A stretch of DNA of 21,816 nt, from IMG/VR virus record IMGVR_UViG_3300032223_001814, positions 1 to 21,816 of that record; one strand, given 5' to 3'. The notes below the pieces were generated by a model, which saw only the letters and a program-made list of their open reading frames with translations, was not told where the DNA came from and ran no database searches. The stretch comes from a virus. A program made the position numbers and the translations under genes. This document shows, piece after piece, positions 354 to 19,470 of this stretch. The number at the start of each line of letters is the position of its first letter. Within the stretch, counting starts at the first letter, position 1.

Positions 354-842
354 ATGACAGAAGATCTCAAAATCCGTCTAGCCACTGTCGAAGATCTGGA
401 CGAAATGATGCGTCTGGCCCTGTCGGCATGCGACGAAAACGGATTTCTGAACCCCAATCCGATCAAGCTTCTGGAGCAGATTTGGCCCGCCCTGAATCAG
501 GATCACGGCCTATGCGCCGTCATCGGAAAGCCCGGTGGCACCATCGAAGGGGCGATCCTTCTGCGTATCGGCCAAATGTGGTATTCGGATGATTTGACCA
601 TTGAGGAAAAGGCCATTTTCATCCACCCAGACTTTCGGGGTGCCAAAGGCGGCAGGGCACGGAAACTATGCGAGTTCAGCAAGACGGTTGCTGACACGCT
701 TGGACTTCCACTGGTAATTGGTGTATTATCCAACAGCCGCACTGAGGCTAAAGTCAGAATGTACGAACGCCAGTTCGGGAAGCCGAGCGGGGCGTTTTTC
801 CTGTATGGGGCGAAAACCGGACAGTTTTCGAAAGGTCACTAA
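354..842 (+). CDS. GNAT-family N-acetyltransferase
   Basis: A 162-residue protein of typical GNAT length. It starts with a beta strand (KIRLATVEDLDEMMRLA), has a central strand pair (GAILLRIGQMWYSDD), then motif A: IFIHPDFRGAKGGRARKLCEFS at about residues 83-104. Its R-G-x-x-G-G-like turn corresponds to the pyrophosphate loop that binds acetyl-CoA. Motif B-like residues follow (LVIGVLSNSRTEAKVRMYERQFG). Such enzymes transfer an acetyl group to an amine; the substrate cannot be read from the sequence. The gene lies between virion genes, which is common for small phage GNATs, where modification of a phage or host protein is suspected but unproven. AAGGA sits 5-6 bases upstream of the ATG, supporting the start, and the stop abuts the next ATG. 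Confidence 0.85.
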   Translation: MTEDLKIRLATVEDLDEMMRLALSACDENGFLNPNPIKLLEQIWPALNQDHGLCAVIGKPGGTIEGAILLRIGQMWYSDDLTIEEKAIFIHPDFRGAKGGRARKLCEFSKTVADTLGLPLVIGVLSNSRTEAKVRMYERQFGKPSGAFFLYGAKTGQFSKGH

Positions 843-3800
843 ATGGGCGGCGGCGGTAAGACACAAACAAGTTCACAACAGGTTACTATCCCGCCGGAAG
901 TTTTGGCGCGGTATAACTCTGTCAACGCTCAAGCCCAGACAGCCGCTTCCCAACCCTTCCAGCAGTATTCGTCTGATCCCAACGCTTTCGTCGCCCCCCT
1001 TACCCCTACTCAGCAAGCGGGTATTGCCAATACCAATACGGCCGCTGGTCAGGCCCAGCCCTATTTCGATGCTGCAACGCAGCAGTTAACCGGGGCGCAG
1101 CAGGCTGCGACCCCGTTCATCTATGGTGCCGCGCAGGGCACTCAGGAGGCCCTACAGCAGGGCACAGCAGCCAATCAGCAGGCCGCTGGTCTGTATGGTG
1201 CTGGTCTCGCGGCGGGCGCTCCCATGATCGCCGCATCGGGCGCTGCGGCCGATGCCGCGCCGATCACCGGCCAGACCATCGGCCAGTATATGGACCCCTA
1301 TCTTTCCAGCGTCGTGGGTAACACCGCCGCGCTTCAAAACCAGCAGAACCAGCAGGCGATGGCCGGTCAAACCGGCAATGCCATTCGTCAGGGCGCTTTT
1401 GGTGGCGACCGCGCGGGCATCGCTGCGGCTAACCTTCAGGGTCAGCAGAATCTTGCCACTGGAAACTTGCTTTCCGGTCTTCTCAGTCAGGGCTACGGGC
1501 AGGCGCTTTCGACCGCCCAGCAGCAGCAGGGTGTCAATCTGGGCGCGCAGCAGGCCAATCTGGCCCGCTTGGGGCAGGCCGGTCAAGGGCTTGCCGGTCT
1601 GTATGGCAGCACAGCGGCTGGTCTTGGTGGCTTGGGTCAGCAGCAATATGCCCAGGGCACCGGCTCTGCCGCCCAACAGGCCGCTATTGGCAACCAGCTT
1701 TACGGCATGGGCGCTGGCACTTCGCAGGCTCTTGCTGGTCTTGGCGCTGGAGCGCAGGGCGCTGCTTTGCAGGGCGCGCAGGCCCAGCTTGCCGCCGGTC
1801 AGGCTGAACAGCAGACCCAGCAGGCCGGTAATACCGCGCTGTACAACCAGTTCCTCCAGAAGCAGTCCTACCCGTTCCAGGTGGCTCAGTTCCTCGCGAA
1901 CATCGCGGAAGGCACGGGTGCGCTGTCTGGTTCTACTACCACGACGACCCAGCCCGGCGGCTTCTTTTCCGACGAGCGGCTCAAGGAAGATATCGAACCG
2001 ATCGGCAAGACCTTCGATGGTCAGAACATCGTCAAGTTCCGGTATAAGGGCGAGCCACGCAAACAGATCGGCCTTATCGCGCAGGATGTTGAAAAGCATC
2101 ATCCTGACGCGGTCGGGTTGGCGTCTGGGTACAAGACGGTTGATTACGACAAGGCTACCGAAGATGCCGCCGATCGCGGCCGCTTTTATCGCGGTGGTTT
2201 GGTGCCTTCGAGCGAAGGCGGTGCGGTAACGACCGCTCATATGGGAGAAGGCTTTGCTGGTGGCGGTCCCGCGCTTCCCAATGCTACTGACATGGCCGCG
2301 TTGTTGGCCGCGCAGGCTCACATGTTTGGTCCGTTCTCACAGGGCGGTCTATACGGCGGCGAAAGCGGTGGTGTTCCCGGCGGCGGTTCAGGCCGCGTTC
2401 CGGCTGCCAACCTGCCTGTCAGTCATCTTGCTGTGGCTGGCGAATTGCCGAAAGCGACTACTACGGCCGAACAAATGGCTCAGATCGCTTCAGCCGGCGA
2501 AAATATTAATAAATTTGGTCAGGAAACTGGACTTTGGAAAGGCAAACCACCTTCTGATACTGCTCCTGCCGCCACTGTAAGTCATGACGAAGTCGATAAT
2601 AGAACTGCCGAACAAAGAGCGGCTGAATTTGGTTTGGGTGCAGGGAATGGTTATCCCATTTCGGATCCAAATGATCCGTATGGACCTTCGGCCCGTGGCG
2701 GCGTAGCCGGTGGCCGTCATCATTATGCTGACGGCGGCATGCCGTATTCTGAACAAACCAGCGGTCCAACTAAACGCGATATTCCTGACGAGCAAAAGGA
2801 AGCGCCGAAACTTGCGACTGCCGGCGGCCTTGGTGGCGGCGGCGGTGGTGGCGATGGCGGTTTGATCGGCGGCATATCGAAATTGGCGGGCATGGGCAGC
2901 AGCCTAGCCGGATTGGGCAGTAGTCTTGGTCTGTTTGGAAGCGCTGCGGGCGCTGCTGGTGCTGGCGGCGGAATTGCGGCCGCTCTGCCATTCCTAGCTG
3001 CTCTTTCTACCGGAGGTGTTGCCGGTGGGCGTAAGGGGTATGCTGGTCGCGGTGCTGTAAATAATGACGATGGTTCTGTCAGCATGGATATGTCTGATGG
3101 TTCAGATATTCCTGCCGATATGTTCGCCGATAGCACTGGGACACCTCATGTTCTTGATGATAGAGGCCCAGTTGTCAGGAAAGATATTCCTTCTGGATTC
3201 CTCGACAGGGAAACCAGGGTTGCTCCTCCTTTGCCAAAGTTTTTGTCTCCGAAAGAACAGGTTGCCGATATTCCCCAATTCAATATCGCACCCGATACTT
3301 CGACGCAGGCCCCCGCTCCTGTTGCACCGCCTGTTAAAACTGGCGTTGTTGCTGCCGCGCCTGTTGCTACTCCTGCCGCTGCGCCTGATTTCAATTCTGC
3401 GTTCAACCAGACGATGCGCTTTGAGGGTGGAAACGCTCTCAATCCTTCCGAAGGTTCAAGGTTTGGTGTTGTTCCCAGCGCCCATCCCGGTGTTGATGTG
3501 GCTAATCTCACCAAAGAGGGTGCCGCCGATATTTATAGAAACGAATATTGGAACCCGATTGGCGCTGATAAAATGTCGCCGCAGCTTGCACCGATCGCTG
3601 CTGACACTGCTTACCATCTTGGCGTTAGAAACACTAAGCCGCTTCTTGAGCAGGCTGGTGGCGATCCCAACAAATTGTTGGATCTGCGTCAGCAATACTA
3701 CAATGATCTTGTTTCTAGTAAACCAGACAAATACGGCCCCAGTTTGAAAGGCTGGACCAACCGCGTTAATCAGTTGCGCGCTACGCTGTCTCCTGCGGCC

Positions 3801-5585
3801 GCTCCTGCGGCCGCTCCTGCGGGCGGCGTAGTTCCCGCTGCCGCTCCTGCGGCCCAGCCCCCTGCGGTTCAGGCCGGCGTGACAGGCGGACAGCCCAGCC
3901 CGGCAGAACAGGCTCTTATTGCCGGTGCCCAGCGTGGCGTTGTCCCGCAGGGCGATATTCGTCAAATTTTGGCCCAAGAAAAGCAGCCGTCTACGGACAT
4001 TTTGCGGGAGCGTTATGATGCCATGATCGGCCAGAAAGGCCGTCAGGGTGACGGCGAGCAGCCTGACATGATTGACCGCGTTCTGCACCGCATTGCACCG
4101 CAGGGCGGCTATCTTGACCGTCTGACCAGTGGTGATGCTGATACGCTTATTCCTTTCCTGACTGGTCTTGCTGCCATGGGAACTGCTCCCACCCGTAATT
4201 TGGGCGTGGCGCTGGCCAGCGGCGTTGGTGCTGGTGCTAAGTCATCTCAAGCTATGCGCGAGTTTGATCTCAGGCGTCAGCAGATGGCATTTAATGTTGC
4301 AAGCAGCATGTTTGGTCCCGCACAGAAAGGCGTTCTTTTTGGGCGCGATCAAAACAAGAATTACTTCCTGAATAACAGATCTGGTCAGTTGGTTTCAGAA
4401 GACGAACGCGCTGCCATTATAAATAACATATACAAGGCATATGGCATTCCTTCGTTTGGCGATGTAGCCGCAAATATAGGACAAGATCGTTCTAGCGAAA
4501 CTAATTTGCCGCTGCCTCCGAAACCTACTGCACCGTTGCCTGGCGCAATGCCTGCTCCGCAGGCACCGCAAGCCGCTCCCACGGCCGGCAGCAAAGATTT
4601 TGGAATCAATGTTAAAGGCAAAACTGAAGCTGCACCTCAGAACGAAGTTTTTGAAATGACCGATCAGAGCATTCAAGATTATGTTCTGCATAACTACGAT
4701 TGGAGCAAAAGCGCGCAAGATCCTAATAGGCTGATTGCAGAGGCCGAAGCAGAAGAAAGGCTTGCGTCCCAGCCTAATCAGGATCCTGCAATTGCACAAA
4801 ATACTTTGGCACATGCTAGAGAATTGCGTAATACTGCTAGTGCCGAAGTTGCAAGAGCGGCTGCGCCTTATATCGAAGGCAAAAATCGCATGACTCAAGA
4901 ATCTCAAACTTATGCCGAGCGTAAGTCTTCAGAATTTCTTTATAACGGCCTAGCAAATATTCTTGAAAAATTCCAATCTGGCAGATTTGCAGGAACTGGT
5001 GCTGATCTTGATGCCTGGTATTCTTCCATTACTGGCGGCAAACATTTGCCGGCCGATCTTGCTCGCGGTCAAATTAGTGCCGATAAGGCTGAATCATTCA
5101 TCAAGGAACAGATGAACCTTGTCTACAAGCAGTTGAATACGCTTAAGGGAAGGATCTTGGACAAAGAAATCCAAGGTATGACAATGGCGTCTCCAGAAAC
5201 AACAAAACAGCCAGCGGCCAACAGGACCATCCTTGGACAGTTCAAGGGAGCGTTTGATTACGCAAACGCAAAATATGAAGCTGAAAGAGATTACACTCAC
5301 AGGAATGGCGGCTTGTTTAATGAAACAGCTTTCAATCGTGAATGGTTTAGCAATCCCGAAAACAGAGTTCAGAACTTTGTAGACAAAGCCACAAAATCTA
5401 TAGCGGTTCGAGGCGGGACACCAGATGATGTCAACCAATTGGAAAAGGGCCAAGCTTATATTATTGAGCCCCCCAGCAATGTCTATGGAAAGTCAAACTT
5501 TACGCCAACTGTAAAGCGTCCGACTAAATTTATATTTGAAGGATACGATCCCAAGACAAAAGAAATGCTTTGGAGGCGTGGATAA
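843..5585 (+). CDS. Giant virion protein: S74 self-cleavage domain, GH108-like lysozyme domain, ejection-protein-like C-terminus
   Basis: A 1580-residue multidomain protein. Residues 1-370 are Gln/Ala/Gly-rich and probably helical. Residues 374-445 form an internal peptidase S74 (intramolecular chaperone) domain starting SDERLKEDI. S376 and K381 are placed like the Ser-Lys dyad known in MYRF and phage S74 domains, where cleavage occurs just before the Ser. Residues 446-840 are Gly- then Pro/Ala-rich linkers with two GGVAGGR motifs. Residues 849-980 look like a GH108-type muramidase; E861 in RFEGG is the candidate catalytic acid, followed by AADIYRNEYWNPI and IAADTAYHLG. After another Ala/Pro linker, residues 1060-1580 are helical and resemble internal or DNA-ejection proteins. 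Inferred role: an ejected virion protein that opens peptidoglycan, possibly cut into two products. AAAGG lies 7 bases before the ATG. Base composition becomes AT-richer toward the 3' end. Confidence 0.8.
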   Translation: MGGGGKTQTSSQQVTIPPEVLARYNSVNAQAQTAASQPFQQYSSDPNAFVAPLTPTQQAGIANTNTAAGQAQPYFDAATQQLTGAQQAATPFIYGAAQGTQEALQQGTAANQQAAGLYGAGLAAGAPMIAASGAAADAAPITGQTIGQYMDPYLSSVVGNTAALQNQQNQQAMAGQTGNAIRQGAFGGDRAGIAAANLQGQQNLATGNLLSGLLSQGYGQALSTAQQQQGVNLGAQQANLARLGQAGQGLAGLYGSTAAGLGGLGQQQYAQGTGSAAQQAAIGNQLYGMGAGTSQALAGLGAGAQGAALQGAQAQLAAGQAEQQTQQAGNTALYNQFLQKQSYPFQVAQFLANIAEGTGALSGSTTTTTQPGGFFSDERLKEDIEPIGKTFDGQNIVKFRYKGEPRKQIGLIAQDVEKHHPDAVGLASGYKTVDYDKATEDAADRGRFYRGGLVPSSEGGAVTTAHMGEGFAGGGPALPNATDMAALLAAQAHMFGPFSQGGLYGGESGGVPGGGSGRVPAANLPVSHLAVAGELPKATTTAEQMAQIASAGENINKFGQETGLWKGKPPSDTAPAATVSHDEVDNRTAEQRAAEFGLGAGNGYPISDPNDPYGPSARGGVAGGRHHYADGGMPYSEQTSGPTKRDIPDEQKEAPKLATAGGLGGGGGGGDGGLIGGISKLAGMGSSLAGLGSSLGLFGSAAGAAGAGGGIAAALPFLAALSTGGVAGGRKGYAGRGAVNNDDGSVSMDMSDGSDIPADMFADSTGTPHVLDDRGPVVRKDIPSGFLDRETRVAPPLPKFLSPKEQVADIPQFNIAPDTSTQAPAPVAPPVKTGVVAAAPVATPAAAPDFNSAFNQTMRFEGGNALNPSEGSRFGVVPSAHPGVDVANLTKEGAADIYRNEYWNPIGADKMSPQLAPIAADTAYHLGVRNTKPLLEQAGGDPNKLLDLRQQYYNDLVSSKPDKYGPSLKGWTNRVNQLRATLSPAAAPAAAPAGGVVPAAAPAAQPPAVQAGVTGGQPSPAEQALIAGAQRGVVPQGDIRQILAQEKQPSTDILRERYDAMIGQKGRQGDGEQPDMIDRVLHRIAPQGGYLDRLTSGDADTLIPFLTGLAAMGTAPTRNLGVALASGVGAGAKSSQAMREFDLRRQQMAFNVASSMFGPAQKGVLFGRDQNKNYFLNNRSGQLVSEDERAAIINNIYKAYGIPSFGDVAANIGQDRSSETNLPLPPKPTAPLPGAMPAPQAPQAAPTAGSKDFGINVKGKTEAAPQNEVFEMTDQSIQDYVLHNYDWSKSAQDPNRLIAEAEAEERLASQPNQDPAIAQNTLAHARELRNTASAEVARAAAPYIEGKNRMTQESQTYAERKSSEFLYNGLANILEKFQSGRFAGTGADLDAWYSSITGGKHLPADLARGQISADKAESFIKEQMNLVYKQLNTLKGRILDKEIQGMTMASPETTKQPAANRTILGQFKGAFDYANAKYEAERDYTHRNGGLFNETAFNREWFSNPENRVQNFVDKATKSIAVRGGTPDDVNQLEKGQAYIIEPPSNVYGKSNFTPTVKRPTKFIFEGYDPKTKEMLWRRG
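3791..3854 (+). repeat. Tandem 12-bp Ala/Pro codon repeat inside the giant virion gene
   Basis: The unit GCTCCTGCGGCC (or its end) occurs at 3791-3800, 3801-3812, in part at 3813-3822, and again at 3843-3854, encoding an APAA-type linker just after the GH108-like domain. The repeat contains two overlapping GCGGCCGC octamers. It is probably a flexible interdomain linker that can expand or contract by slippage. Confidence 0.75.
5572..5577 (+). promoter_or_regulatory. Ribosome binding site deciding the next gene's start
   Basis: GGAGGC lies 7-8 bases before the ATG at 5585, inside the last codons of the upstream gene. It favours the ATG at 5585, which overlaps the upstream stop as TAATG, over the in-frame TTG at 5570, which lies before the ribosome binding site and would place it inside the coding region. 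Confidence 0.8.
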
Positions 5586-7564
5586 TGGTTGGCCAAGAAG
5601 ATACCGGAGAAATAGTTAAGATTCCTGCGCCGCAGGAATACGAAGCGCCAGAGTCTCATGCTAACGAAAGAGTTGGCGTTAAGGTTGATCCTAATAACCC
5701 GGATCCATCGCGCGAACAGGCTGCTTACGAAGCAGTAACTGGTAAGGGTGCTGGAACGCCTTACCCTGCCGATGAATTTGTTCAAAAAGTAACAAAACAT
5801 TTTATTCCTTCGGTTGGAGAAGAATTATCAGCATTTGGTCGTGCCGTTTCTGATCCCGCAACAACTTTGCACAGCATGTGGGAACTAGGGACCGGCGCTC
5901 TTTCAAAAACTATGCATCCCGGAGGCATAGGGCAATTTGCCGGAACACTTGGCCAAGCTGTAAATCTTGGCCATATGCCTACAGAAGAGGAAACCAAAGG
6001 AACATGGCTAGATCCTTCGGTTCAGGCTAAAAACGAAGCCCCTATTAATGCATTGATATCTAGGGAAGCGCCCAAATTTAGTTCTTTTGCAAATTTTGAA
6101 AGAGCCCTTGCGGAAGATCCGGCCGGTGTTCTTTCTACTGCAACTATTCCTTTTACTGGCGGTGAAACTGCCTTGGGCAAGGCTCCAGGACTTCTTGGAA
6201 AAACAGCCAGGATCGCGGGCAAAGTTGGATATTTAGACCCGGCACAATCTGCGCTTGGACTTGCTCGCGGTGCTTATGGCGGCATAGGTGGCATAACCCG
6301 TGCGGGACAGTCATTAGTTTCAGGCTCTCCTTGGAGGGCGTTGAAGACCGCTGAAGACACAATTGCAAATGCTAGCCCTACAGATGCTTGGTCATTTGTA
6401 AAACATTACACTGGGATGGGCGATCATTACGAGATAGTAAATTCGCTAAAAGAAGCTTTAAAAAAATATAAAGCAGAACAGTATGCTAATTGGAACGGAA
6501 TGAGGACAAAGGCTTTTGGCAACAATCCTCCCCCGCTTAGTTTCAATGAGCCTGGGACAAGCATAGATGATGCTTTGAACCGTGCAATAACGGCTACTTC
6601 TGGCCCTGCTGGCGTTGGATCACCAGGATTTAGGACTGCATTAAATAACGCAGTTCATGGTCCTAACGGACTAGTTGATCTTGTAAATTCTTTTAAAGCC
6701 AATCCTGCTTGGCACACCATGGAAGGATTTGATGCACTTCGTGAAAATGTAGGTCATTTCCTTAATGATGCGGATCCAAAAGTAAGAGAATATGCTGGAA
6801 GAGTTTATGGTGCCGTTCGCGGCACTATGACTAAAATGTCTCCTGAGTATTCTCAAGTTTTGCAAAGTATTAGCGAAGCGAGAAATAAAATTAATGATTT
6901 GAGCCAAACGCTTATTGGTGGAAAGAATGCTACAGCTACTAAAAGCACGGAAGCGTCGTTAAAAGCTTTGGGAACTAGTAAAGGTAATAATCTTCTTAAT
7001 GATCTTGCAAAACATGATTCAAGAATACCTTACATGCTTTCCGGTGCCGCTCTTAATGAATGGTTGCCAAGCAATGTGGGGAAAGTTGTTGATTTGGCGG
7101 GTGCTTTAGGAAGCGGCGCTGGAATTTACATGCAGCCACATTTGTGGCCCCAAATTTTGGGAAGTGCCGCGACAACCTTGGCTAGTACATCTCCTAAACT
7201 TGCTGGCTTCATGAACATGATGTCTGGTGCGTTTAAACGCGCAACTACTCCGTTCTCCAGCCCGACCGGTGTCAAGGCCACTACCCAAATAGGGCGCGAA
7301 CAAAAACGGCAAGACATTGAGCAAGGCAAAGAAAAAATCGATCCAACTCAATATGTCGATTTGGAAAAGTATAATTCCAGTGATCGCACCGGACGCGCCA
7401 GCGGAGGCAAGGTCGATGCCGACATGCACGAAAAGCTGGTCAATCGCCTTATGAATATGGCCAAGCAGGCCAAGAAGGTATCGGACAAGACAACGGAACC
7501 GCTTCTGAACGCGCCGGACGAAGCCATTGTGAAGGCGCTTGGCGTGGCCCAGGAAGCGATTTAG
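5585..7564 (+). CDS. Probable internal virion protein, unknown function
   Basis: A 659-residue protein starting at the ATG that overlaps the previous stop (TAATG). The N-terminus is acidic and Pro-rich. Residues 60-240 mix amphipathic helices with Gly/Ala-rich hydrophobic stretches (GGIGQFAGTLGQA, ARGAYGGIGGITRAG). Residues 260-490 look helical and charged, and residues 500-535 are hydrophobic and Gly-rich. The C-terminal 60 residues form a compact helical tail beginning RTGRASGGKVD at R601 and ending LLNAPDEAIVKALGVAQEAI. I recall similar tails on uncharacterised alphaproteobacterial phage proteins. Size, position after the giant ejection-like protein and absence of enzyme motifs suggest a virion internal or ejection protein; this is inference. 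Most of the gene is AT-rich with many AAA, ATA, AGG and TTA codons. The last 300 bases switch to GC-rich codons, suggesting mosaic ancestry. Confidence 0.7.
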   Translation: MVGQEDTGEIVKIPAPQEYEAPESHANERVGVKVDPNNPDPSREQAAYEAVTGKGAGTPYPADEFVQKVTKHFIPSVGEELSAFGRAVSDPATTLHSMWELGTGALSKTMHPGGIGQFAGTLGQAVNLGHMPTEEETKGTWLDPSVQAKNEAPINALISREAPKFSSFANFERALAEDPAGVLSTATIPFTGGETALGKAPGLLGKTARIAGKVGYLDPAQSALGLARGAYGGIGGITRAGQSLVSGSPWRALKTAEDTIANASPTDAWSFVKHYTGMGDHYEIVNSLKEALKKYKAEQYANWNGMRTKAFGNNPPPLSFNEPGTSIDDALNRAITATSGPAGVGSPGFRTALNNAVHGPNGLVDLVNSFKANPAWHTMEGFDALRENVGHFLNDADPKVREYAGRVYGAVRGTMTKMSPEYSQVLQSISEARNKINDLSQTLIGGKNATATKSTEASLKALGTSKGNNLLNDLAKHDSRIPYMLSGAALNEWLPSNVGKVVDLAGALGSGAGIYMQPHLWPQILGSAATTLASTSPKLAGFMNMMSGAFKRATTPFSSPTGVKATTQIGREQKRQDIEQGKEKIDPTQYVDLEKYNSSDRTGRASGGKVDADMHEKLVNRLMNMAKQAKKVSDKTTEPLLNAPDEAIVKALGVAQEAI

Positions 7565-7573
7565 GAGACGTAA

Positions 7574-8683
7574 ATGACCAGTTCGTACACAACCAATAAG
7601 AGCATCGAAAAACCCGGCAACGGCGACTATGTGAACACTTGGTCAAGCCCAGTTAATACTGACTGGGATATTGTTGATACTTGCTTTGGCGGCACCACTA
7701 CCCTGACTTCCACAAGCGGTAGCACCACGCTTTCTACGGCTCAGTACCGCACCCCCATTTTGAATTGCACCGGCACTCTTACCGGTAACGTCACCTACAC
7801 CATTCCGTCCGGTATTGGCGGCTTGTGGACTGTAGCTAACGCGACCAGTGGATCATACACGGTCACGTTTGCCTCTGGCGGCGGCGGTACCTCTATTGTG
7901 GTGACACAGGGCACTCGCGCTTTCCTTTTGTCGGACGGCACGAACATCTCTTATTGCAGCACTCAGCCCGTCACACCGGCTGGCAGCAACACCCAGATCC
8001 AGTTCAATAACAGTGGATCTCTGGGTGCGTCTTCCAACTTCGTGTGGACTGGATCTGCCGTTGGTATTGGCACGTCGTCCCCCGGTTACACTCTTGCCGT
8101 AAACGGCACGATTGGGGCCGGTGCCATTTCTTGCAGCAGCGTCACCAATTCCGGTGCCCTGTCTTGCGCCAGCGCCTCCATCAGCGGCGCGGCCACTGTT
8201 GGAACCACGCTGGGTGTCAGCGGGTCTGCCACTGTGGGTGGCAACCTCACGGTCAGCGGCACCATTTCCGGTTCGTTTGGCGCGATCTCTTGCAGCAGCC
8301 TTAGTGTCAGCGGTTCGGCCTCTCTATCGTCTGGCTTGACCGTCAGCGGCGCTATTACGGCCACTGGCAACGTAACGGCATACTATTCGGACATCCGGCT
8401 GAAGGACGTTCAGGGACCGATCACGGGCGCTTTGGATAAGGTTAGCAACCTGAACGGCTTCTACTACCGCGCCAACGACACTGCGAAGGCGCTGGGCTAT
8501 ACTGACGAACTTCAGGTTGGCCTGTCGGCGCAGGATGTCGAAGCCGTCATGCCGGAAGTTATCCATCCGGCTCCAATTGATAAGCAATATAAGACCCTGA
8601 ATTATGGACATCTGGTGCCGCTTCTGATAGAAGCCATCAAAGAACTGCGGCAGGAAGTCGAGACGCTGAAGGCTGGCAAATGA
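7574..8683 (+). CDS. Tail fibre with C-terminal S74 intramolecular chaperone
   Basis: A 369-residue fibre. The first 45 residues (TTNKSIEKPGNGDYVNTW) resemble particle-attachment ends of phage fibres. Residues 45-160 are Thr/Ser/Gly-rich beta structure. Residues 180-265 are a repetitive shaft of short Ser-Gly units (TVGGNLTVSGTISG type) in which GAISCSS recurs at 183 and 236. The S74 chaperone begins YSDIRLKDV, with S272 and K277 as the predicted self-cleavage dyad. It continues through VGLSAQDVEAVMPEVI and ends in a helix (LLIEAIKELRQEVETL) typical of trimeric chaperones. In known fibres the domain drives trimerisation and then cuts itself off before the Ser, leaving a fibre of about 271 residues. 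AGGAG overlapping the upstream TAG supports the start; the stop overlaps the next start as ATGA. Confidence 0.88.
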   Translation: MTSSYTTNKSIEKPGNGDYVNTWSSPVNTDWDIVDTCFGGTTTLTSTSGSTTLSTAQYRTPILNCTGTLTGNVTYTIPSGIGGLWTVANATSGSYTVTFASGGGGTSIVVTQGTRAFLLSDGTNISYCSTQPVTPAGSNTQIQFNNSGSLGASSNFVWTGSAVGIGTSSPGYTLAVNGTIGAGAISCSSVTNSGALSCASASISGAATVGTTLGVSGSATVGGNLTVSGTISGSFGAISCSSLSVSGSASLSSGLTVSGAITATGNVTAYYSDIRLKDVQGPITGALDKVSNLNGFYYRANDTAKALGYTDELQVGLSAQDVEAVMPEVIHPAPIDKQYKTLNYGHLVPLLIEAIKELRQEVETLKAGK

Positions 8684-10044: not shown

Positions 10045-10256
10045 ACGACCAAAATAACCTGATTCTTACAGTCGTTATTGTGACACTGGCATTAGTCATG
10101 GTTGCTGTCATTGGAGTGCTTTTGAACGGGTTGTTTACCCCCATGGTAGACAACAGCAAAATATTTGAAATTCTTGGTCCGGCCTTTCAAACCATAGTAG
10201 GTGCGTTTGTTGGGGTGCTGGGCGGAAGGGCTATAAACAATGGAAAAGACATTTGA
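10041..10256 (+). CDS. Small two-TM protein of the lysis cassette
   Basis: A 71-residue protein with two hydrophobic helices. One lies at about residues 8-30 (ILTVVIVTLALVMVAVIGVL), the other at about 46-63 (GPAFQTIVGAFVGVLGG). A short polar loop (DNSKIF) joins them, and the tail is short and polar. The start overlaps the holin stop (ATGA), and the end overlaps the endolysin start by 17 bp, so the three genes are likely translationally coupled. Two TM helices in a lysis cassette suggest a second holin, an antiholin or a pinholin. No family motif decides this, and the role is inference from context. Confidence 0.75.
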   Translation: MNDQNNLILTVVIVTLALVMVAVIGVLLNGLFTPMVDNSKIFEILGPAFQTIVGAFVGVLGGRAINNGKDI

Positions 10257-10755
10257 AAAATCCATCGTCATGCTCCTGAAGCATGAAGGTGGTTTTGTGC
10301 ATGACAAGCTGGATAAAGGCGGCATGACAAATCTTGGCGTGACGCAGGCTGTTTGGGAAAATTATGTCGGAAAGCCTTGTTCAGAAACTGAAATGCGGGC
10401 TCTTACGCCAGAAATGGTTGCTCCGCTTTACAAGAAAAATTACTGGGACAGGATACGCGGCGACGAATTACCGGCAGGCGTTGATCACTGCGTTTTTGAT
10501 TGTGCTGTCAATTCTGGTGTTGGCCGCGCAGTAGATATGTTGCAGTCATGTGTTAACGTGCCGGCTGATGGCAAGATCGGTCCTGTTACGATCGCGGCCG
10601 TTAAGGCCATGGACGTTAACGATTTAATTGATCAGTACACGACATTTCGCTTGTCTTTCCTGAAAAGACTGTCAAATTTTAATCACTTTGGTGCTGGGTG
10701 GACTTCTCGCGTTAAGAGCGTCTCTCAGGAGGCAAGAAAATTAACTAACGGATAG
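10240..10755 (+). CDS. Endolysin, GH108 muramidase with PG-binding-3 domain
   Basis: A 171-residue endolysin. The GH108 domain occupies residues 5-90. LLKHEGGFV carries E16, the family's catalytic acid. GGMTNLGVTQAVW is the conserved Gly-Thr loop, followed by LYKKNYWDRIRGDELPAG. The C-terminal half matches the PG_binding_3 module: VFDCAVNSGVGRAVDMLQ, then a peptidoglycan-recognition-like stretch (VPADGKIGPVTIAAVKAM) and the terminal helix YTTFRLSFLKRL. It hydrolyses the glycan backbone of peptidoglycan at lysis. There is no signal peptide or N-terminal TM anchor, so it should depend on the holin just upstream. GGAAGG lies about nine bases before the ATG, inside the preceding gene. Length fits the family. 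Confidence 0.93.
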   Translation: MEKTFEKSIVMLLKHEGGFVHDKLDKGGMTNLGVTQAVWENYVGKPCSETEMRALTPEMVAPLYKKNYWDRIRGDELPAGVDHCVFDCAVNSGVGRAVDMLQSCVNVPADGKIGPVTIAAVKAMDVNDLIDQYTTFRLSFLKRLSNFNHFGAGWTSRVKSVSQEARKLTNG

Positions 10756-10760
10756 ATTAC

Positions 10761-11816
10761 ATGGCCAGCCCCGGCGTACCCGATGAAGAACTTTTACATT
10801 GTCTAAAAATCTACGAGCGTTTTGGTGGCAACCAAGTTCAGGCCGGTAATTTTTTAGGTCTTGATCGGCGCACGCTGGCAAAACGTATCCAAACAGCCAA
10901 AACCAAAATAGCCGATGGCACTTTACGTCGGGACAAGCCATTTTCCGTAGAACATACAGGCGACCCTCAAGCTGACGCACAGGAATTGCTTGCGCGCCGC
11001 AAAAAGGATTTTGAACGAGTCAGGCGAGCCAAGGACAGCAAAAAGCTAATAAACGTAGATGTCAAAATAGATGGCCCTATAGGCATCGTGCATTTTGGCG
11101 ACCCCCATGTTGACGACGACGGCACGGACATCGGCTTGATCGAAGAACACATAAAGATCGTCAACAAGACCGAAGGCCTGTTTGGGGCCAACCTGGGCGA
11201 CATCCAAAACAACTGGATTGGCCGACTTGCCCGGCTTTATGCAGAACAGTCCACCTCCCATTCTGATGCCTGGGTGCTGACCGAATGGATGGTCAGTTCG
11301 GTCAACTGGCTGTACCTCGTAGCTGGTAATCATGACGCTTGGTCGGGCGTTGGTGACCCCCTGAAATGGATCGCCAAGCAGTCTGGAAACATTCTAGATT
11401 ACCACGGTTGCCGGTTGAACCTGGCCTTCCCCAACAAAAAAGGCGTCCGTATCAACGCCAGGCATGACTTTTCCGGCCATAGCATGTGGAACCCCGCCCA
11501 CGGGCCTATGAAGGCCGTACAGGGCGGTTGGCGGGATCATATACTCACCTGCGGCCACAAGCACGTTTCCTTCTTGGCAGGGCCTCTAAAGGATCCTGCG
11601 TCGGGCCTGCTGTCCTGGGCCATCCGGTGCGCCGGGTACAAGACCTATGACCGCTATGCCGAGGAGCGGGGTCTTCCAGACCAGAACGCCTTTGCGGCCT
11701 GCGTGACCATCATAGATCCGCAGTATGCCGACGACGATGCCCGCCTAATAACCGTGATCCCGGATGTTCAGGAAGGGGCAGAGTTCCTGAAGTTTAAACG
11801 CCGGAAGGGCAAATAG
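10761..11816 (+). CDS. Calcineurin-like metallophosphoesterase with N-terminal HTH
   Basis: A 351-residue protein. Residues 5-48 form a FIS/Hin-like helix-turn-helix (ELLHCLKIYERFGGNQVQAG, then LGLDRRTLAKRI), followed by a basic linker. The metallophosphoesterase domain spans about 100-310 and shows the full metal-ligand set: GDPHVD at 113-118, GD at 146-147, GNHD at 189-192, H235 in RHDFSGH, and GHKH at 265-268. Such enzymes hydrolyse phosphodiesters using two metal ions; Mre11/SbcD-type nucleases share the fold. The N-terminal DNA-binding domain makes a DNA substrate plausible, but substrate and role in phage growth are unknown. No strong Shine-Dalgarno is visible, and the ATG follows the endolysin stop by five bases. 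The next ATG directly abuts the stop. Confidence 0.85.
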   Translation: MASPGVPDEELLHCLKIYERFGGNQVQAGNFLGLDRRTLAKRIQTAKTKIADGTLRRDKPFSVEHTGDPQADAQELLARRKKDFERVRRAKDSKKLINVDVKIDGPIGIVHFGDPHVDDDGTDIGLIEEHIKIVNKTEGLFGANLGDIQNNWIGRLARLYAEQSTSHSDAWVLTEWMVSSVNWLYLVAGNHDAWSGVGDPLKWIAKQSGNILDYHGCRLNLAFPNKKGVRINARHDFSGHSMWNPAHGPMKAVQGGWRDHILTCGHKHVSFLAGPLKDPASGLLSWAIRCAGYKTYDRYAEERGLPDQNAFAACVTIIDPQYADDDARLITVIPDVQEGAEFLKFKRRKGK

Positions 11817-12863: not shown

Positions 12864-13020
12864 CGTTGTTACCTTTTGAAGCAGAAAATTCCTGTTTGGT
12901 TATTTCCTGTTTAACCGCTGGGTGTTTCGTATGCAAGGAAGCTACTTTTGACTGTAATTTCCCTATTTCATCTATGGCGCAATCATGATGATCCCGCCAG
13001 CATTCTTCATAGTGTTCCAT
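12796..13020 (-). CDS. Small hypothetical protein, overlapping its downstream neighbour
   Basis: A 74-residue ORF starting MEHYEECWRDHHDCAIDEIG, with a helical segment (KLQSKVASLHTKHPAVKQEI) and a polar C-terminus. Its ATG lies inside the last codons of the primase-helicase gene (14-bp overlap), and AGAGG at 13030-13034 is nine bases upstream. The N-terminal two-thirds is plausible coding sequence. The last third overlaps the next gene by 68 bp, unusually long for this genome. The Cys/His-rich start could bind a metal, but only one C-x7-C pair is visible. Function unknown. Confidence 0.45.
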   Translation of the reverse strand: MEHYEECWRDHHDCAIDEIGKLQSKVASLHTKHPAVKQEITKQEFSASKGNNDEIFIYFEHGVLQASADPADHR

Positions 13021-15649
13021 TATCGTTATCCTCTTCTATAAATTCTCTATGTACATACGCGGAACGCTTGCGACCGGCCTTTCTTTTGCCGAATGCGACA
13101 TCATCAACCCAGACGACATCGCCTCCATCAATGATGGCTTGCATGACATCTTTCAATTCGCGCTCTGGCAAACGACCAGGCGGCGAGCGGCGAAGTTCAT
13201 AATGCGCCAATCCGCGCGGGCCGGCGGCATGCACCAGTTTCTTTGCCGCCTTCATTTTCTGCTCAAAATTGGTATCCGCGATCTCGTCCTTGGCGCTGGC
13301 TTCCATAGCGGTGATAGTCACGCGGGACAGTTCGCAAGCCCAGCGCATGATGTCACCCGTCACCACCAGCGTGGTGGTATCGATTTGGCGCTTGCCTTCT
13401 TCGACGAGGGCCGGGGCAGAACAGGCCGCAACCAAAGCGAATTTCAAAGCGTTTTCACGGGCGCGGACGTACAGAGAATCGGTACCGCGTTCGCGCGCCG
13501 CAACCTTTTTGGCATGCATTTCCAGTTCAAAATCTTTGGCGACGTTCATGGCCTCATCGGTCATGGGCACCTTGATCGGGCGGATAACCTGGTCGCCGCC
13601 CACCAGTTCTATGGGGTTCGGATTTAGCGGCCGCTCGTTCCAGGCACGCAGCCAGTCGATGACTTCTTCGGGCGGGTCCATTTCCACCGGCATGGAGCCA
13701 ATGGGGTCATGGTCACCGGCTGAAAACAGCGTGAAGCGGCTCAGAAGGCCGTTGGTGACATCTTTGGTGGACAGGGCAGAGAACAGGCCGGCCGGGGTGG
13801 ACGCGCCCATGACGCAAACACAGGGCTGGTCAACGGTCTTGATCTTCTCACTATCGGCGTAGGATTTGCCCTTAAAAACGGTGCGGCTGGAAGAGTACAG
13901 CTTCAGCAGTGTAGAAACGATGTTTACAACGTGAACACCGGCATTCCGATTATTGGTAGACGAAAATAGGAATGAAATTTCGTCCAAAAGGCAGATCTGG
14001 TTCGGCTGCCTGATAACGCAATTTGTCAGGCCCGCATCGCTGGCCATTTCCTCGACACCGATCAGGACATCGAATAGGCCGGCCGCCTTGGCGGTCTGCT
14101 TGACCGCAGACAGAAGGCGCTCCTTGCCGGCACCAGAATGGGCCACCGCAAGGGCGTAAATGTTAGCCCTAACCCCAGATACCTCCAATTCGGCCTTCCG
14201 GCCTATGGCAGACCCGAAAAATGTCAGGACAGATGCCAGCGCTAGGGCCGGCTGGGGCTTGGGGGAGGTTGCTACGATAAAGTTATGCATATCCCGCATA
14301 ACCCCAGGAAGATTACTGTACAATGATGGGGGGATATTCGAGTTCTTCTCAGCAGCCACATAGAAGGCCACAGGCGTCGATTTGCGGGTTGGCTGGTGTA
14401 CCAGACCGGACAGGTCCACAAGGGGCGGCGCTGGCGTCAGGAAGGCTTCTGAGGACAGGTCTGAGACTTCCAGAACCCCGTTGGCCAGCAGGGCGCGCAG
14501 GTGGTCCAGCCGGTCATGGCCGGCGCAGCCCGCATGCATGCAGTTTATGACAAAACCAGACTTCACGGACGGCAGGGAGGCCATCGGCAGATCCGAAGCG
14601 TTTACGGCGTAGGTTCCGCCGGTATCCTCCCCGGCCGTCACATGGTCCCCGGCGTTCGGGCACCGGATATGCCGTTTCACTCCGTTTACCCGGCTGGTGA
14701 ACATCTTTGGGGCCTTAGCCTGGAGCGCCTTCACCACCTCGAACCGGGAGGCGTACTGGGCTGCCCATTCGGTCAGGTCGATAAACTCCCCGTCCTTGGA
14801 CACCGCATGCTTGTGATCGGGCTTTACAGCCTTCAGGTGAGGCGCTGGGGCAGCGGCCGCAAATAGGGGTGCCTCGGCAGCCGGGGCATCGGGAAGGTCG
14901 AACAGCGGGCACGGCAAGCCCTCCAGCGATCGATATTCAAACGGGGCCTCCTTGGTCTTGATCCGGGGCAGATAAAACAGGCGGCTGGTGTCCACGCAGG
15001 ACTGGTCGTTGTTCAGCCCCAAGGCGTGTGCAAGTGCAGCAATTCTCTCCCGCCACCGGGTGTTGGCCGATAGCTGGCTCTCAAAATTCTCGGCCACCCA
15101 CGGTTCGGCCAACTTCAGAATAATTCTAAATTTGGGGCACGGGGCATGCTCCACGACAAGGTTGCGGGCGCTGCCCTCGCTGACCTCGTCAATGATCTTG
15201 GCCCCCTTGATCACGCGGGGCAGATAACCCTTCTTTTCGGCAAGGTATTCCTCGACCCCCTTGCCAGTATTGTCCGCCCGCCACTTTTCGAACGCAGCCT
15301 CTGAAATCTGGGTCTGGTTCGTCATATGGCTATGGGTCGAATGAATAACCGCCCGCCAGCCCTTGGCCGTGATAGAATCGGCGATTTCGCCCAAGCTGTA
15401 ACCGCAGTCTGCATCCAGAACGACAACATCGATCCGGGCAGTCTGATCCATGCGGCGGGCAGTGCCCGTAAAAATGGCCGGCGTATAGCAAGGACCATCC
15501 TTGATTCCGACGCCAGGCTTGCGAAGAAGATCAGCAAAATCGTCAAACGTCATGCTGCGGCGATCGGACCACCGCACTTCAGAACGCGACTTGCCAAAAG
15601 TTAAAGATATTTCCTGCTGCTCTGCCATATCGGGATCATTATCAATCAT
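13007..15649 (-). CDS. Bifunctional AEP primase (PrimPol) and DUF3987-type helicase
   Basis: An 880-residue replication protein, taking the ATG at 15649 that overlaps the upstream stop (TAATG). A longer version from 15709 would overlap that gene by 61 bp and is less likely. The N-terminal part has archaeo-eukaryotic primase motifs: DVVVLDAD (D79, D81) for metal binding, VIHSTHSH (about 102-108) as the His motif, FRIILKL (about 174-180), and DTSRLFYLPR (220-229). A Cys cluster (C330, C370, C375) suggests a zinc-binding linker. The C-terminal half is a P-loop ATPase: Walker A HSGAGKE with K509, Walker B CLLDEISF with D556/E557, matching the DUF3987 family. A winged-helix-like end follows. Likely role: priming and unwinding at the phage origin or forks. 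No DNA polymerase gene is in the window. Confidence 0.85.
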   Translation of the reverse strand: MIDNDPDMAEQQEISLTFGKSRSEVRWSDRRSMTFDDFADLLRKPGVGIKDGPCYTPAIFTGTARRMDQTARIDVVVLDADCGYSLGEIADSITAKGWRAVIHSTHSHMTNQTQISEAAFEKWRADNTGKGVEEYLAEKKGYLPRVIKGAKIIDEVSEGSARNLVVEHAPCPKFRIILKLAEPWVAENFESQLSANTRWRERIAALAHALGLNNDQSCVDTSRLFYLPRIKTKEAPFEYRSLEGLPCPLFDLPDAPAAEAPLFAAAAPAPHLKAVKPDHKHAVSKDGEFIDLTEWAAQYASRFEVVKALQAKAPKMFTSRVNGVKRHIRCPNAGDHVTAGEDTGGTYAVNASDLPMASLPSVKSGFVINCMHAGCAGHDRLDHLRALLANGVLEVSDLSSEAFLTPAPPLVDLSGLVHQPTRKSTPVAFYVAAEKNSNIPPSLYSNLPGVMRDMHNFIVATSPKPQPALALASVLTFFGSAIGRKAELEVSGVRANIYALAVAHSGAGKERLLSAVKQTAKAAGLFDVLIGVEEMASDAGLTNCVIRQPNQICLLDEISFLFSSTNNRNAGVHVVNIVSTLLKLYSSSRTVFKGKSYADSEKIKTVDQPCVCVMGASTPAGLFSALSTKDVTNGLLSRFTLFSAGDHDPIGSMPVEMDPPEEVIDWLRAWNERPLNPNPIELVGGDQVIRPIKVPMTDEAMNVAKDFELEMHAKKVAARERGTDSLYVRARENALKFALVAACSAPALVEEGKRQIDTTTLVVTGDIMRWACELSRVTITAMEASAKDEIADTNFEQKMKAAKKLVHAAGPRGLAHYELRRSPPGRLPERELKDVMQAIIDGGDVVWVDDVAFGKRKAGRKRSAYVHREFIEEDNDNGTL

Positions 15650-15858
15650 TAAAAAGGAACTGCTCTGGTCATATATTGACGAATGACGATGGCAAGGAAA
15701 TTCATCCACTCTTCGGATGTCATATCGTCAAAATTTTTGAACCCCATATTTTCCAGATAACAGCCGGCTGCATCGCTGGCATCATACAAAGCTTCAATTT
15801 CATAATCTTCAAATTTCCAATATTCAAAAACATCTATATTACCCAACATTCTGTTCAT
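15649..15858 (-). CDS. Small acidic hypothetical protein
   Basis: A 69-residue protein, rich in Asp, Glu and aromatic residues (FEYWKFEDYEIEALYDASDA), ending FLAIVIRQYMTRAVPF. Its ATG overlaps the helicase stop (ATGA), and its stop overlaps the primase-helicase start (TAATG), so it is tightly coupled between two replication enzymes. A second ATG three codons later is an alternative start. Acidity and position would suit a protein partner of either enzyme, but this is inference and no family is recognised. Confidence 0.65.
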   Translation of the reverse strand: MNRMLGNIDVFEYWKFEDYEIEALYDASDAAGCYLENMGFKNFDDMTSEEWMNFLAIVIRQYMTRAVPF

Positions 15859-17438
15859 GGCAGCATGTACCCCATAATTTCGGTGTACTTTCCATTAGGA
15901 CGCACCCGGATCTTCTTGGGAACTTCCAAAAACGTTGATCTCTTGACGGCTTCATTAGTATCGCGCGGCACTGGTGCAGTTTCCATAGTTCTATTGATCC
16001 ACCATTTCACCGCTTTTTCGCCGGCATACCCAACATGCTCAAAGCATATCCATTCGCGGTACTGAATCAAACCACACTGATAGGTAACACACATGGACGG
16101 CGGCTTGCCGGGCTTGAAGTGGGCCGCATAGGTAACCTTGTCTACTTCTACCCATTCGTTATTTATCTGGCTGGAAAGTAATGCATCGGTTGATGCCACC
16201 TTACTGATCTTGATTTCGCGTGGTGGGAACTCAAAACCGCAGTTTTTGCATCTCAACGTACCCGCAGCGCATATCATTGCACATTTTGGGCAAACCTTGA
16301 CTGGGGCCTCTCCTGGTTCCTCGTTGTCATCCTTTTTCTTAGATCCGCGAACTGTGTCTACGGGCCCGTGCCGGCGCGTGTTCCCCGCGAAGTCTAGAAC
16401 CAGACAATCATCCTTGCCGTTGGCCAACCGCGTTCCACGACCCAGCATCTGCACATAAAGACCCTGAGACTTGGTCGGCCGCAGCATGCCGATCATGTCC
16501 ACGCCAGGGGCATCGAAGCCGGTGGTCAGAACATTCATATTGGTGATGCAGCGGATGTTGCCTTCCTTGAACTCGCGCAGAATCCTGTCGCGCTCCGGTG
16601 CCGGCGTATCGCCAGACACTGTTTCGCAAGTCAGACCTACCGCCTTGATCAGATCCCGAACGTGCTTTGCGTGAGAGACACCAGCGCAGAAGACCAGCCA
16701 TGAGCCCCTGTCCTGCCCGTGCTTTATCATTTCCGCGACAGCGGCGACATTGGCTTCTTCCGTATCGACCGCCCGCTCAAGTTCGCCCGCAATAAATTCG
16801 CCGCCGCGCGTATGAACCCCGGTAACGTCCAGCGTCATGCTCGTTTGCTTGGGGATAAGCGGGACCAGATAGCCCTGCTCAATCATGTCGAGCATATCTG
16901 CTTCGTAACAGATATCGGTAAACAGCGCGTCAACGCCGCTGGTAAGCATGCCCTGATCCATGCGGTAGGGCGTAGCAGTCAGGCCGATGATCTTCAGATC
17001 AGGATTAATATCTTTCAGGTCGCGCAGAAAGTTCCGATACATGCCGTTATCGGACTTCTGCATCAGGTGCGCCTCGTCGATCATGACAAGGTCGCATTTC
17101 TGCACTTCATAGGCGCGGCGATGTATCGACTGAATGCCAGCAAACAGGATCTGGCTGTCCATCTCGCGCTTGCCAAGGCCCGCGCTGTAGATGCCGGCCG
17201 GGGCTTCGGGCCAGGCGCGCAAGGCTGCGTTGAAGTTCTGCTGGATCAATTCCTTCACATGGGTCAGGACAATGACGCGCGTATCGCGCCATGTGCCAAG
17301 TGACTCTTGCAAAAACTTCGCCAGCACCACGCTCTTGCCGGTGCCTGTAGGTAATACGATTAGTGGATTGCCGTCGTCTGACCGAAAGTATTCGTATATC
17401 GAATCAATCGCTTCCCGCTGGTACTTTCTTAGTTCCAT
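15855..17438 (-). CDS. DEAH-box superfamily 2 helicase with zinc ribbon
   Basis: A 527-residue SF2 helicase beginning MELRKYQREAIDSIYEYF, the Q-motif-like start. Motifs appear in order: Walker A PTGTGKS (30-36), Ia region VIVLTHVKELIQQ, DEAH (121-124), TATP (154-157), motif V TTGFDAPGVD (305-314) and motif VI QMLGRGTR (320-327). A zinc ribbon follows (CPKC at 383-386, CKNC at 397-400), then a C-terminal domain of unknown type. The frame is open back to 17597, but that extension lies within the nuclease gene and lacks helicase sequence. The chosen ATG overlaps the nuclease end by 35 bp. Phage relatives unwind recombination or replication intermediates (UvsW/Res-type). Here it sits between a Cas4-like nuclease and a primase-helicase. 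Confidence 0.9.
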   Translation of the reverse strand: MELRKYQREAIDSIYEYFRSDDGNPLIVLPTGTGKSVVLAKFLQESLGTWRDTRVIVLTHVKELIQQNFNAALRAWPEAPAGIYSAGLGKREMDSQILFAGIQSIHRRAYEVQKCDLVMIDEAHLMQKSDNGMYRNFLRDLKDINPDLKIIGLTATPYRMDQGMLTSGVDALFTDICYEADMLDMIEQGYLVPLIPKQTSMTLDVTGVHTRGGEFIAGELERAVDTEEANVAAVAEMIKHGQDRGSWLVFCAGVSHAKHVRDLIKAVGLTCETVSGDTPAPERDRILREFKEGNIRCITNMNVLTTGFDAPGVDMIGMLRPTKSQGLYVQMLGRGTRLANGKDDCLVLDFAGNTRRHGPVDTVRGSKKKDDNEEPGEAPVKVCPKCAMICAAGTLRCKNCGFEFPPREIKISKVASTDALLSSQINNEWVEVDKVTYAAHFKPGKPPSMCVTYQCGLIQYREWICFEHVGYAGEKAVKWWINRTMETAPVPRDTNEAVKRSTFLEVPKKIRVRPNGKYTEIMGYMLP

Positions 17439-18162
17439 GACATGTTTCTCTATAGTTGCACCATTTACACGCAAACCAATTAGGGTCGTTTGATGTCTTT
17501 GCCAGCGGATACTTGGCCTCCAGAATGCGGTGGGCCTTGTCCTTGATGGCTTCAAAATCTTCGGGCACAAATTCCGTGCGGCAAGCGTCCCAGTCACGAC
17601 CGCCGGGTGTTCCCACGGTCAGGAAGTGACGCTTCATTCCAGAATAGCCCATGTAGCACTGCGCCTGGGCGTAGTAGACCGGATCCCATTCCTTCAGCGT
17701 TTTCTTTTCGCCGTTCTTCTGCTTGATGCTCTGGAACTTGGCGTATTTCTTTTCGTTGACGCACTTGCCTTCCCAGACATGCCAGGTGGCCGGCGCTTGG
17801 ATCAGGCCTTTGATAATGCCGTCCATGTGGCCTTTGAACTTGCCATCAAAATCCACGACTTCGAACTGACGGCCGGTTTCCGGGTCCAGCGTCATGAACG
17901 TAATGCCCGGTATCAGGCGCAAACGCTCGCCCATCAAATCTTCTGTCCTGTGACCGTCCGCGAACCGGCGCAGCGTGGCGGCGTCGAAGTTCTCAGGTTC
18001 AGGCTGGTGATAGCTGTACCAAAGCTTGCGCGAGCATTCGTTGCCGATAGCCGACATGCCGAGATATTGGCGGCGCGGAGCGCGGGCTTCGCGCTCAACC
18101 ATGGCTACATCTACTGCGGCAAGGTTTGGATCTTGAACTGGCGGTTGTGGAATAGCGACCAT
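17404..18162 (-). CDS. Cas4/RecB-like PD-(D/E)XK exonuclease with Fe-S cysteines
   Basis: A 252-residue nuclease. The start at 18162 is preceded by AGGGGA; a longer frame to 18318 would run through the terminator and overlap the SSB gene. Motifs: C43 in ECSRKLWY, E74 in HRTEDLMGER, D114 in GHMDG, E131-G-K133, and a Q-x3-Y motif at Q166-Y170. Three more cysteines (C232, C235, C241 in ACKWCNYRETCHG) complete the four-Cys set that holds a [4Fe-4S] cluster in Cas4, AddB and related enzymes. It probably resects DNA ends to give single strands for the Sak4-like annealing protein encoded upstream. It is not an adaptation Cas4, since no cas1, cas2 or repeat array is present. Confidence 0.88.
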   Translation of the reverse strand: MVAIPQPPVQDPNLAAVDVAMVEREARAPRRQYLGMSAIGNECSRKLWYSYHQPEPENFDAATLRRFADGHRTEDLMGERLRLIPGITFMTLDPETGRQFEVVDFDGKFKGHMDGIIKGLIQAPATWHVWEGKCVNEKKYAKFQSIKQKNGEKKTLKEWDPVYYAQAQCYMGYSGMKRHFLTVGTPGGRDWDACRTEFVPEDFEAIKDKAHRILEAKYPLAKTSNDPNWFACKWCNYRETCHGTKKVPAGSD

Positions 18163-18696: not shown

Positions 18697-19470
18697 TCAG
18701 ACTGCCTTCTTTTCAGTTTTGGGTTTTGCGTAGAACGGAATGCCAGAAGCGTAGGTATCCCAATCCATGGGAATCATGGGTTCAAGATTGAAACGCTGCT
18801 TGGCAAGGAATGCGGGGCGCTCTTCAGTGTACAACACGCGGTCGCCGCCCCCGACTGCCCGCGTGATCTTCTTGCCGAATCCCGCATCGGACTTGATGGT
18901 CGAAATGCGGTAGTTGGCAAACAAGACATTGTCCATGGCTTCCTGCAACAGGGCAGAAGCGCCTTTGTGGATCTTGGGAGTATACCGATCATAAGGCTCA
19001 CTGTCGGGAGCCTCGAACCGGCTGATCTGGGAATGCGCGATCAGAATGACAGACATCTTCTTGTCATCGCGCAGGGCGCGCAAACCATCGATCATGGCCC
19101 GCCACATATCCAGTGCAGCGACATAGCCCTTGCCGTAGCCAGGCGCTTCGATGTTGGCCCAACCGTTGTCCTTACAGGCTTGCGCCCAGACCAGCGGCTC
19201 CAGATGGTCCACGCTGTCCAGAACTAGCGTTTCATACTTGTGATCTTCCGAATAAAGAGATCCGATCGACTGCATGACCTCATCAAAGGTCCGAAGCATG
19301 CCGAAAGTATCGCGATCGATCAGACCCAGACCGTCTTCAGTCTGGAGAAAGATCGGCTTTGGTGCGCTGGCGGCGAAACTGGTCTTGCCGACGCCGTGTG
19401 GGCCGTAAATCATTCCCATGGGCGGCTTATTTGTCGCCCCTGATTTTACGTTAGCTAGAGAGATTGCCAT
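18697..19470 (-). CDS. Sak4-like RecA-fold ATPase (single-strand annealing/recombination)
   Basis: A 257-residue P-loop ATPase of the AAA_24/Sak4 type. Walker A is GPHGVGKT (23-30). KPIFLQTEDGLGL follows, then Walker B YETLVLDSVDHL with D85, and VILIAHSQIS (141-150) with a sensor-like His and Gln. The fold is a shortened RecA core; Sak4 proteins of this size promote annealing with help from a phage SSB. The neighbouring DUF669 gene and Cas4-like nuclease form the expected resect-coat-anneal set. GGAA lies about eight bases before the ATG, which follows the upstream TAG directly. Confidence 0.87.
   Translation of the reverse strand: MAISLANVKSGATNKPPMGMIYGPHGVGKTSFAASAPKPIFLQTEDGLGLIDRDTFGMLRTFDEVMQSIGSLYSEDHKYETLVLDSVDHLEPLVWAQACKDNGWANIEAPGYGKGYVAALDMWRAMIDGLRALRDDKKMSVILIAHSQISRFEAPDSEPYDRYTPKIHKGASALLQEAMDNVLFANYRISTIKSDAGFGKKITRAVGGGDRVLYTEERPAFLAKQRFNLEPMIPMDWDTYASGIPFYAKPKTEKKAV

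Follow-up and report, generated by a model that had tools for sequence, protein, structure and literature searches.

The window (the whole stretch of viral DNA analysed, 21,816 nucleotides) carries an open reading frame at positions 843 to 5585 that encodes 1580 amino acids with no internal stop, and that joins an N-terminal helical domain, an S74 domain and a GH108-type lysozyme domain in one chain. The genes and features of this region are as follows.

354-842, plus strand: GNAT-like acetyltransferase at the internal virion protein A position (P22 gp14 / T7) (phrog_1249, E 6e-9)
843-5585, plus strand: fused protein of 1580 aa, very probably an ejection protein (open reading frame; 76 complete fused relatives)
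843-1937, plus strand: Gln/Ala-rich helical domain of internal virion protein B type, residues 1-365 (phrog_4287/phrog_6121; predicted helical)
1968-2162, plus strand: short-form S74 domain, residues 376-440 (PF13884, AlphaFold2, invariant S/D/K)
1968-1970 and 1983-1985, plus strand: codons of S376 and K381; the cut is predicted after codon 375, directly before codon 376
2163-3386, plus strand: linkers rich in Gly that bear aromatic-x-x-GG repeats, plus a variable middle region, residues 441-848
3387-3782, plus strand: GH108-type lysozyme domain, residues 849-980 (PF05838, phrog_315; E861 codon 3423-3425)
4095-5582, plus strand: helical C-terminal region at an ejection-protein position, residues 1085-1580 (position; low-confidence helical model)
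4146-4238, plus strand: most strongly conserved stretch within the C-terminal part, residues 1102-1132, hydrophobic (LIPFLTGLAAMGTAPTRNLGVALASGVGAGA; alignment)
5585-7564, plus strand: next ejection-protein gene, internal virion protein D position (gene order in relatives)
7574-8683, plus strand: tail fibre with a full-length S74 domain at its end (PF13884, E 1.6e-10 at residues 272-330)

The Pfam GNAT match of the acetyltransferase is weak and below the cut-off. The gene after the fused frame probably starts at ATG 5585, at the fused gene's stop, rather than at TTG 5570, and a GGAGG Shine-Dalgarno sequence lies upstream of this ATG. The fibre keeps its terminal coiled-coil helix (IEAIKELRQEVETLKAGK); the phage thus encodes two types of S74, the full-length one of the fibre lying two genes downstream of the short form in the fused protein. 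A holin and then a GH108 endolysin follow the fibre. Further downstream are a DNA repair exonuclease-like gene (10761-11816, phrog_7339) and, on the minus strand, genes for a DUF3987 protein (13007-15709), a ResIII/helicase (15855-17597) and an AAA_24 ATPase (18697-19470), these last three probably forming a replication/recombination block. An SU10-type adaptor (PF24175, E 2e-14) is encoded upstream in L002, a 90% identical relative, which fits a short-tailed phage.

Pfam recognises two domains in the fused protein, Peptidase_S74 (PF13884) at residues 376-424 (E 2e-10, 41.2 bits against a curated cut-off of 22) and GH108 (PF05838) at residues 856-927 (E 1.9e-8, 35.2 bits against a curated cut-off of 21.2). 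As both lie above the curated thresholds, neither match is due to chance, and with S376, K381 and E861 all in place they bear out the first-pass annotation, which had proposed an internal S74 domain with the pair S376/K381 and a GH108-like domain with E861. Its description of the N-terminal piece as Gln/Ala-rich also holds, as Gln and Ala make up 39% of the first 375 residues. Linkers with an aromatic residue (RFYRGG, HHYADGG) recur at residues 445-452, 468-475, 625-632 and 730-735, and many relatives have Gly-rich linkers of this aromatic kind, both following S74 and separating domains.

Scanning viral contigs with a profile brought up at least 466 relatives in the 600 stretches retained, and the loci fetched from these yielded 97 non-redundant proteins, 76 of them complete. 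All 76 complete relatives are fused, with lengths of 1050-1926 aa, and none is standalone; no relative in a bacterial genome was confirmed. A frameshift or assembly artefact behind the fusion is ruled out by these 76 non-redundant complete proteins from many contigs. The fusion is natural and well supported: it links an internal virion protein B, an S74 domain and a muramidase-bearing ejection protein, and its boundary, at which S74 lies, corresponds to the border between two separate genes in other phages. No in-frame internal start with a Shine-Dalgarno sequence of at least 5 bases was found for the C-terminal part, weaker sites being possible.

The 76 complete relatives carry one S74 module in 55 cases, two in 15 and none in six, counts that are biased towards S74 carriers because the first query included S74. 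In the two-module proteins (among them L004 5211-10181, L011, L036, L065, L068, L084, L103, L113, L119 and L121) the modules lie ~160-380 residues apart and the catalytic dyad is intact in both (15/15); the second module, present in about one fifth of complete relatives, sits in the variable middle region. Such double-S74 proteins would give three fragments if both modules cut. From the six complete proteins that lack it S74 is wholly gone, with no dead full-length copy found. In a tree of the N-terminal domain these S74-less proteins are scattered, with five changes of presence or absence, at least four of which are forced by well-supported branches.

The S-D-x-x-x-K motif is kept in 107 of 107 S74 modules from the 97 non-redundant proteins. 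Across 32 non-redundant modules seven columns are invariant (S376, D377, K381, G410, A413, P421 and V433), and the median pairwise identity is 47% (30 non-redundant modules). AlphaFold2, run on input alignments from which rows from annotated records were left out, predicts the S74 fold with pLDDT ~89 over residues 381-440; the final helix ends at residue 444 and pLDDT falls below 50 after 446. The S74 profile matches the solved structures of a neck appendage (3gud), a long tail fibre subunit (6f45) and MyRF (7dc3) (E ~4e-4). The domain resembles the intramolecular chaperone autocleavage (ICA) domains of endosialidase, MyRF and phi29-type neck appendages in Pfam family, Ser-Lys dyad and predicted fold, and the ICA domain of MyRF is, as here, internal rather than terminal. 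It differs from them in lacking the trimerising coiled coil, in having a short hairpin and no beta-helix stalk, and in that its cleavage is predicted. The C-terminal alpha4 coiled coil, which brings known S74 domains together as trimers, is absent; past the last S74 strand, 92 modules average 6.3 Gly per 36 residues and 3.2 Leu/Ile/Val/Met per 28 residues. In low-confidence AlphaFold2 models the region upstream of S74 is helical or disordered and no triple beta-helix stalk is predicted. In MyRF the coiled coil trimerises the ICA domain and is needed for cleavage, and the substitutions L692A or R695A in this helix block it (PMC8326128). As the coiled coil is lacking, we class the module of the window as a short-form S74 and not as a proven ICA autoprotease. 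Truncated second modules of ~36 residues, with an SDRR(T/A)K start running into a Gly-rich linker, are present in L104 (2622-6764, residues 548-584) and L066 (5998-10053, residues 545-579); these cannot be full S74 domains, so the motif alone is no proof of catalysis.

The S74 domain and the sequence before it match two PHROG families, phrog_4287 'DNA ejection protein' and phrog_6121 'virion structural protein', over residues 4-440 and 16-441, respectively. These families are ~392 residues long, and the members examined carry S74 at their end; residues 1-365 of the window protein alone matched no PHROG family. The N-terminal domains of two S74-less relatives do match phrog_4287 (L023, E 3e-11 over residues 1-313; L032, E 8e-11 over residues 12-302), and the kinship of the domain to ejection proteins is therefore independent of S74. 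A Foldseek search with the model of residues 1-476 returned generic long helices only (best E 0.03).

Gene order points the same way. In podoviruses with separate genes, cultured and assembled ones alike, the recurrent order is a nozzle/stabilisation gene, an acetyltransferase, an S74 protein, a muramidase or internal virion protein, and a further ejection protein; this block is seen in EBPR podovirus 2 (gp27-gp29), Sulfitobacter pCB2047-C, Ochrobactrum OH, Rhizobium RHph_N2 and phiGT1; Sinorhizobium phiM5 and Pseudomonas PAE2 have most of the block, no acetyltransferase being annotated there. In phiGT1, pCB2047-C, RHph_N2, OH and MW202675 the S74 gene follows the acetyltransferase gene. The phiGT1 paper gave the name internal virion protein A to the homologue of P22 gene 14 (PMC10386132), and the phiGT1 record puts the acetyltransferase at that place. 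The phiM5 record notes the S74 protein and the next three (internal virion) proteins as detected in the particle. The window protein shares with phiGT1 gp17, EBPR podovirus 2 gp27, phiM5_27 and pCB2047-C SUBG_00009 a Gln/Asn/Ala-rich N-terminus, a short S74 domain with intact dyad and the gene order; unlike it, these proteins stop after S74 and the muramidase or ejection protein is a separate gene. The first-pass view that S74 domains normally end a fibre thus needs correction, as many podoviruses carry S74 at the end of an internal virion protein. The 'internal virion protein D' of MW202675 (Manatee Spring isolate ct7L0027; 1185 aa, S74 at residues 277-327) is fused in the same way, with an N-terminal domain, S74, a lysozyme-type domain and a C-terminal region, but bears an SLT transglycosylase where the window protein has GH108.

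The lysozyme domain is also matched by phrog_315 endolysin over residues 809-1000 (E 1e-20). Its E-G-G motif is kept (E861-G-G); the second GH108 motif reads NPSEGSRFG, shorter and with the Asp absent there, against DDAGKGPSKYG in ctQRb9 and DKLDKGGMTNLG in the window's own endolysin. With the Glu of E-G-G kept and the usual Asp-bearing second motif absent, the domain is, on these motifs, likely but not certain to be active. It is 42-44% identical to the lysozyme domains of two podovirus proteins at internal positions, those of ctQRb9 (MW202722) and ctHz2215 (MW202485), where GH108 likewise belongs to a large protein at an internal virion position; in these records, however, nothing matches the S74 of the window protein, and the flanks differ. 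Two diverged GH108 domains are present in the one phage, at 3387-3782 in the ejection protein and at 10240-10755 in the lysis cassette, and with 24% identity between them the former is ruled out as a recent copy of the latter.

The muramidase differs in type among the relatives: the window and its near-copy L002 have GH108, L032 and L038 have SLT, and L036 has Phage_lysozyme2. In others it is the next gene that encodes a wall hydrolase or SLT domain; a Hydrolase_2 or SLT domain lies there, with none detected in the fused protein, in L008 (11880-14786), L010 (10147-13083), L011 (10415-12826) and L022 (10731-13682). The enzyme appears as if it had moved between the fused gene and the next one. 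Ejection proteins are mosaic, with lysozyme activity on different members (PMC8954989), and the exchange of muramidases among the relatives fits this pattern.

For the C-terminal region (residues ~1060-1580) no family was matched in Pfam or PHROG, and no similarity to T7 gp15/gp16 or P22 gp20/gp16 was found by the same route. Comparison of the C-terminal part with the muramidase and ejection proteins of split-gene phages by hhalign and hmmsearch gave nothing significant, and the conserved block gave one weak match of 11 bits, to the OH protein, within Gly/Gln-rich sequence. The AlphaFold2 model of residues 1060-1580 is poor (mean pLDDT 48) and mostly helical. The large helical, ejection-type C-terminus of the first-pass annotation is borne out at low confidence in its predicted helicity and by no family match; its putative ejection role is assigned from gene position only. 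The protein as a whole is comparable to T7 gp14/gp15/gp16 and P22 gp7/gp20/gp16 in genome position, in proposed role and in having a peptidoglycan-cutting domain in one protein of the set, and unlike them has an S74 domain and two proteins fused.

These observations make it very probable that the product of the fused frame is an ejection protein that would leave the virion at infection. The first-pass suggestion that a cut would part a structural piece from an ejected one is probably wrong: the N-terminal part is kin to phrog_4287 and occupies the internal virion protein B position, and both products are thus probably ejection proteins. The reading that best accommodates the data, to which we give a probability of about 50%, is a self-splitting ejection polyprotein of a P22/LUZ24/SU10-like short-tailed phage, in which an internal virion protein B (residues 1-365) is joined via S74 (residues 376-440) to a muramidase-bearing ejection protein. 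Folding and oligomerisation of the N-terminal helical domain would come first, probably within the prohead. With K381 as its activator, S376 would then attack its own peptide bond and sever the chain between residues 375 and 376, leaving an ejection protein of 375 residues and a muramidase/ejection protein of 1205 residues in a 1:1 ratio. Both products would exit the particle together with the DNA, the muramidase opening the peptidoglycan and the helical parts helping to build a trans-envelope channel. That the chain is in fact cut at S376 is about as likely as not.

The main rival holds that the protein is never cut and that the short S74 domain serves as a folding cap or packing module of internal virion protein B, the whole chain being packaged and ejected. 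This is a serious possibility, though we would put it at somewhat less than even odds. It accords with an S74 domain that has neither coiled coil nor beta-helix stalk, and with the size of T7 gp16 (1318 aa), a working ejection protein of similar length (PMC8954989). The six S74-less fused relatives also speak for it: they imply that a cut is not required in every such phage and, barring the action of another protease, that a long chain can function uncut. What it explains poorly is the invariance of Ser and Lys in 107 modules, second copies included, while adjacent positions vary, since in a module with a structural role alone one or other residue should have been lost somewhere.

It is also conceivable, if rather improbable, that S74 cuts mainly to free the C-terminus of an oligomerised N-terminal ejection protein, the splitting of the fusion being a by-product. 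Standalone S74 proteins stop 3-15 residues past the last S74 strand and often have a hydrophobic stretch before the Ser (phiM5, OH, EBPR2), and similar stretches precede the second modules of fused relatives; the stretch before S376 in the window (GSTTTTTQPGGFF), however, is not a hydrophobic helix. That the gene product is simply a tail fibre or tailspike that bears S74 and lysozyme domains, as the database names of its relatives ('tail fiber domain-containing protein', 'putative tailspike protein') would have it, is very improbable, since such names probably derive from the S74 match alone, the N-terminal part is kin to DNA ejection families, the gene belongs to the block for internal virion proteins, a distinct fibre bearing a full S74 is encoded two genes downstream, and the region before S74 is predicted to be helical and not beta.

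Standalone S74 proteins at this gene position are already recorded in annotation (e.g. phiGT1). What is new is the fusion, the occurrence of two S74 modules in one protein and a module free of coiled coil with a conserved dyad; our literature search, with most subscription journals outside its reach, found no paper on S74 with internal virion or ejection proteins. More tentatively, the self-splitting polyprotein may represent a class of ejection proteins that cut themselves once or twice by means of a minimal, coiled-coil-free S74, with cleavage triggered by assembly and products in equal amounts. S74 domains have so far been studied as chaperones of trimeric fibres, and naming such genes 'tail fiber' from an S74 match is likely wrong. 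Here the S74 fold turns up in the ejection apparatus across many environmental phages, at times twice in one protein, with its catalytic pair untouched and without the portion on which trimerisation depends. If it does not cut, the 'catalytic' residues are kept for another reason; if it does, phage ejection would involve a polyprotein strategy, and the module would be a minimal version of the self-cutting domain.
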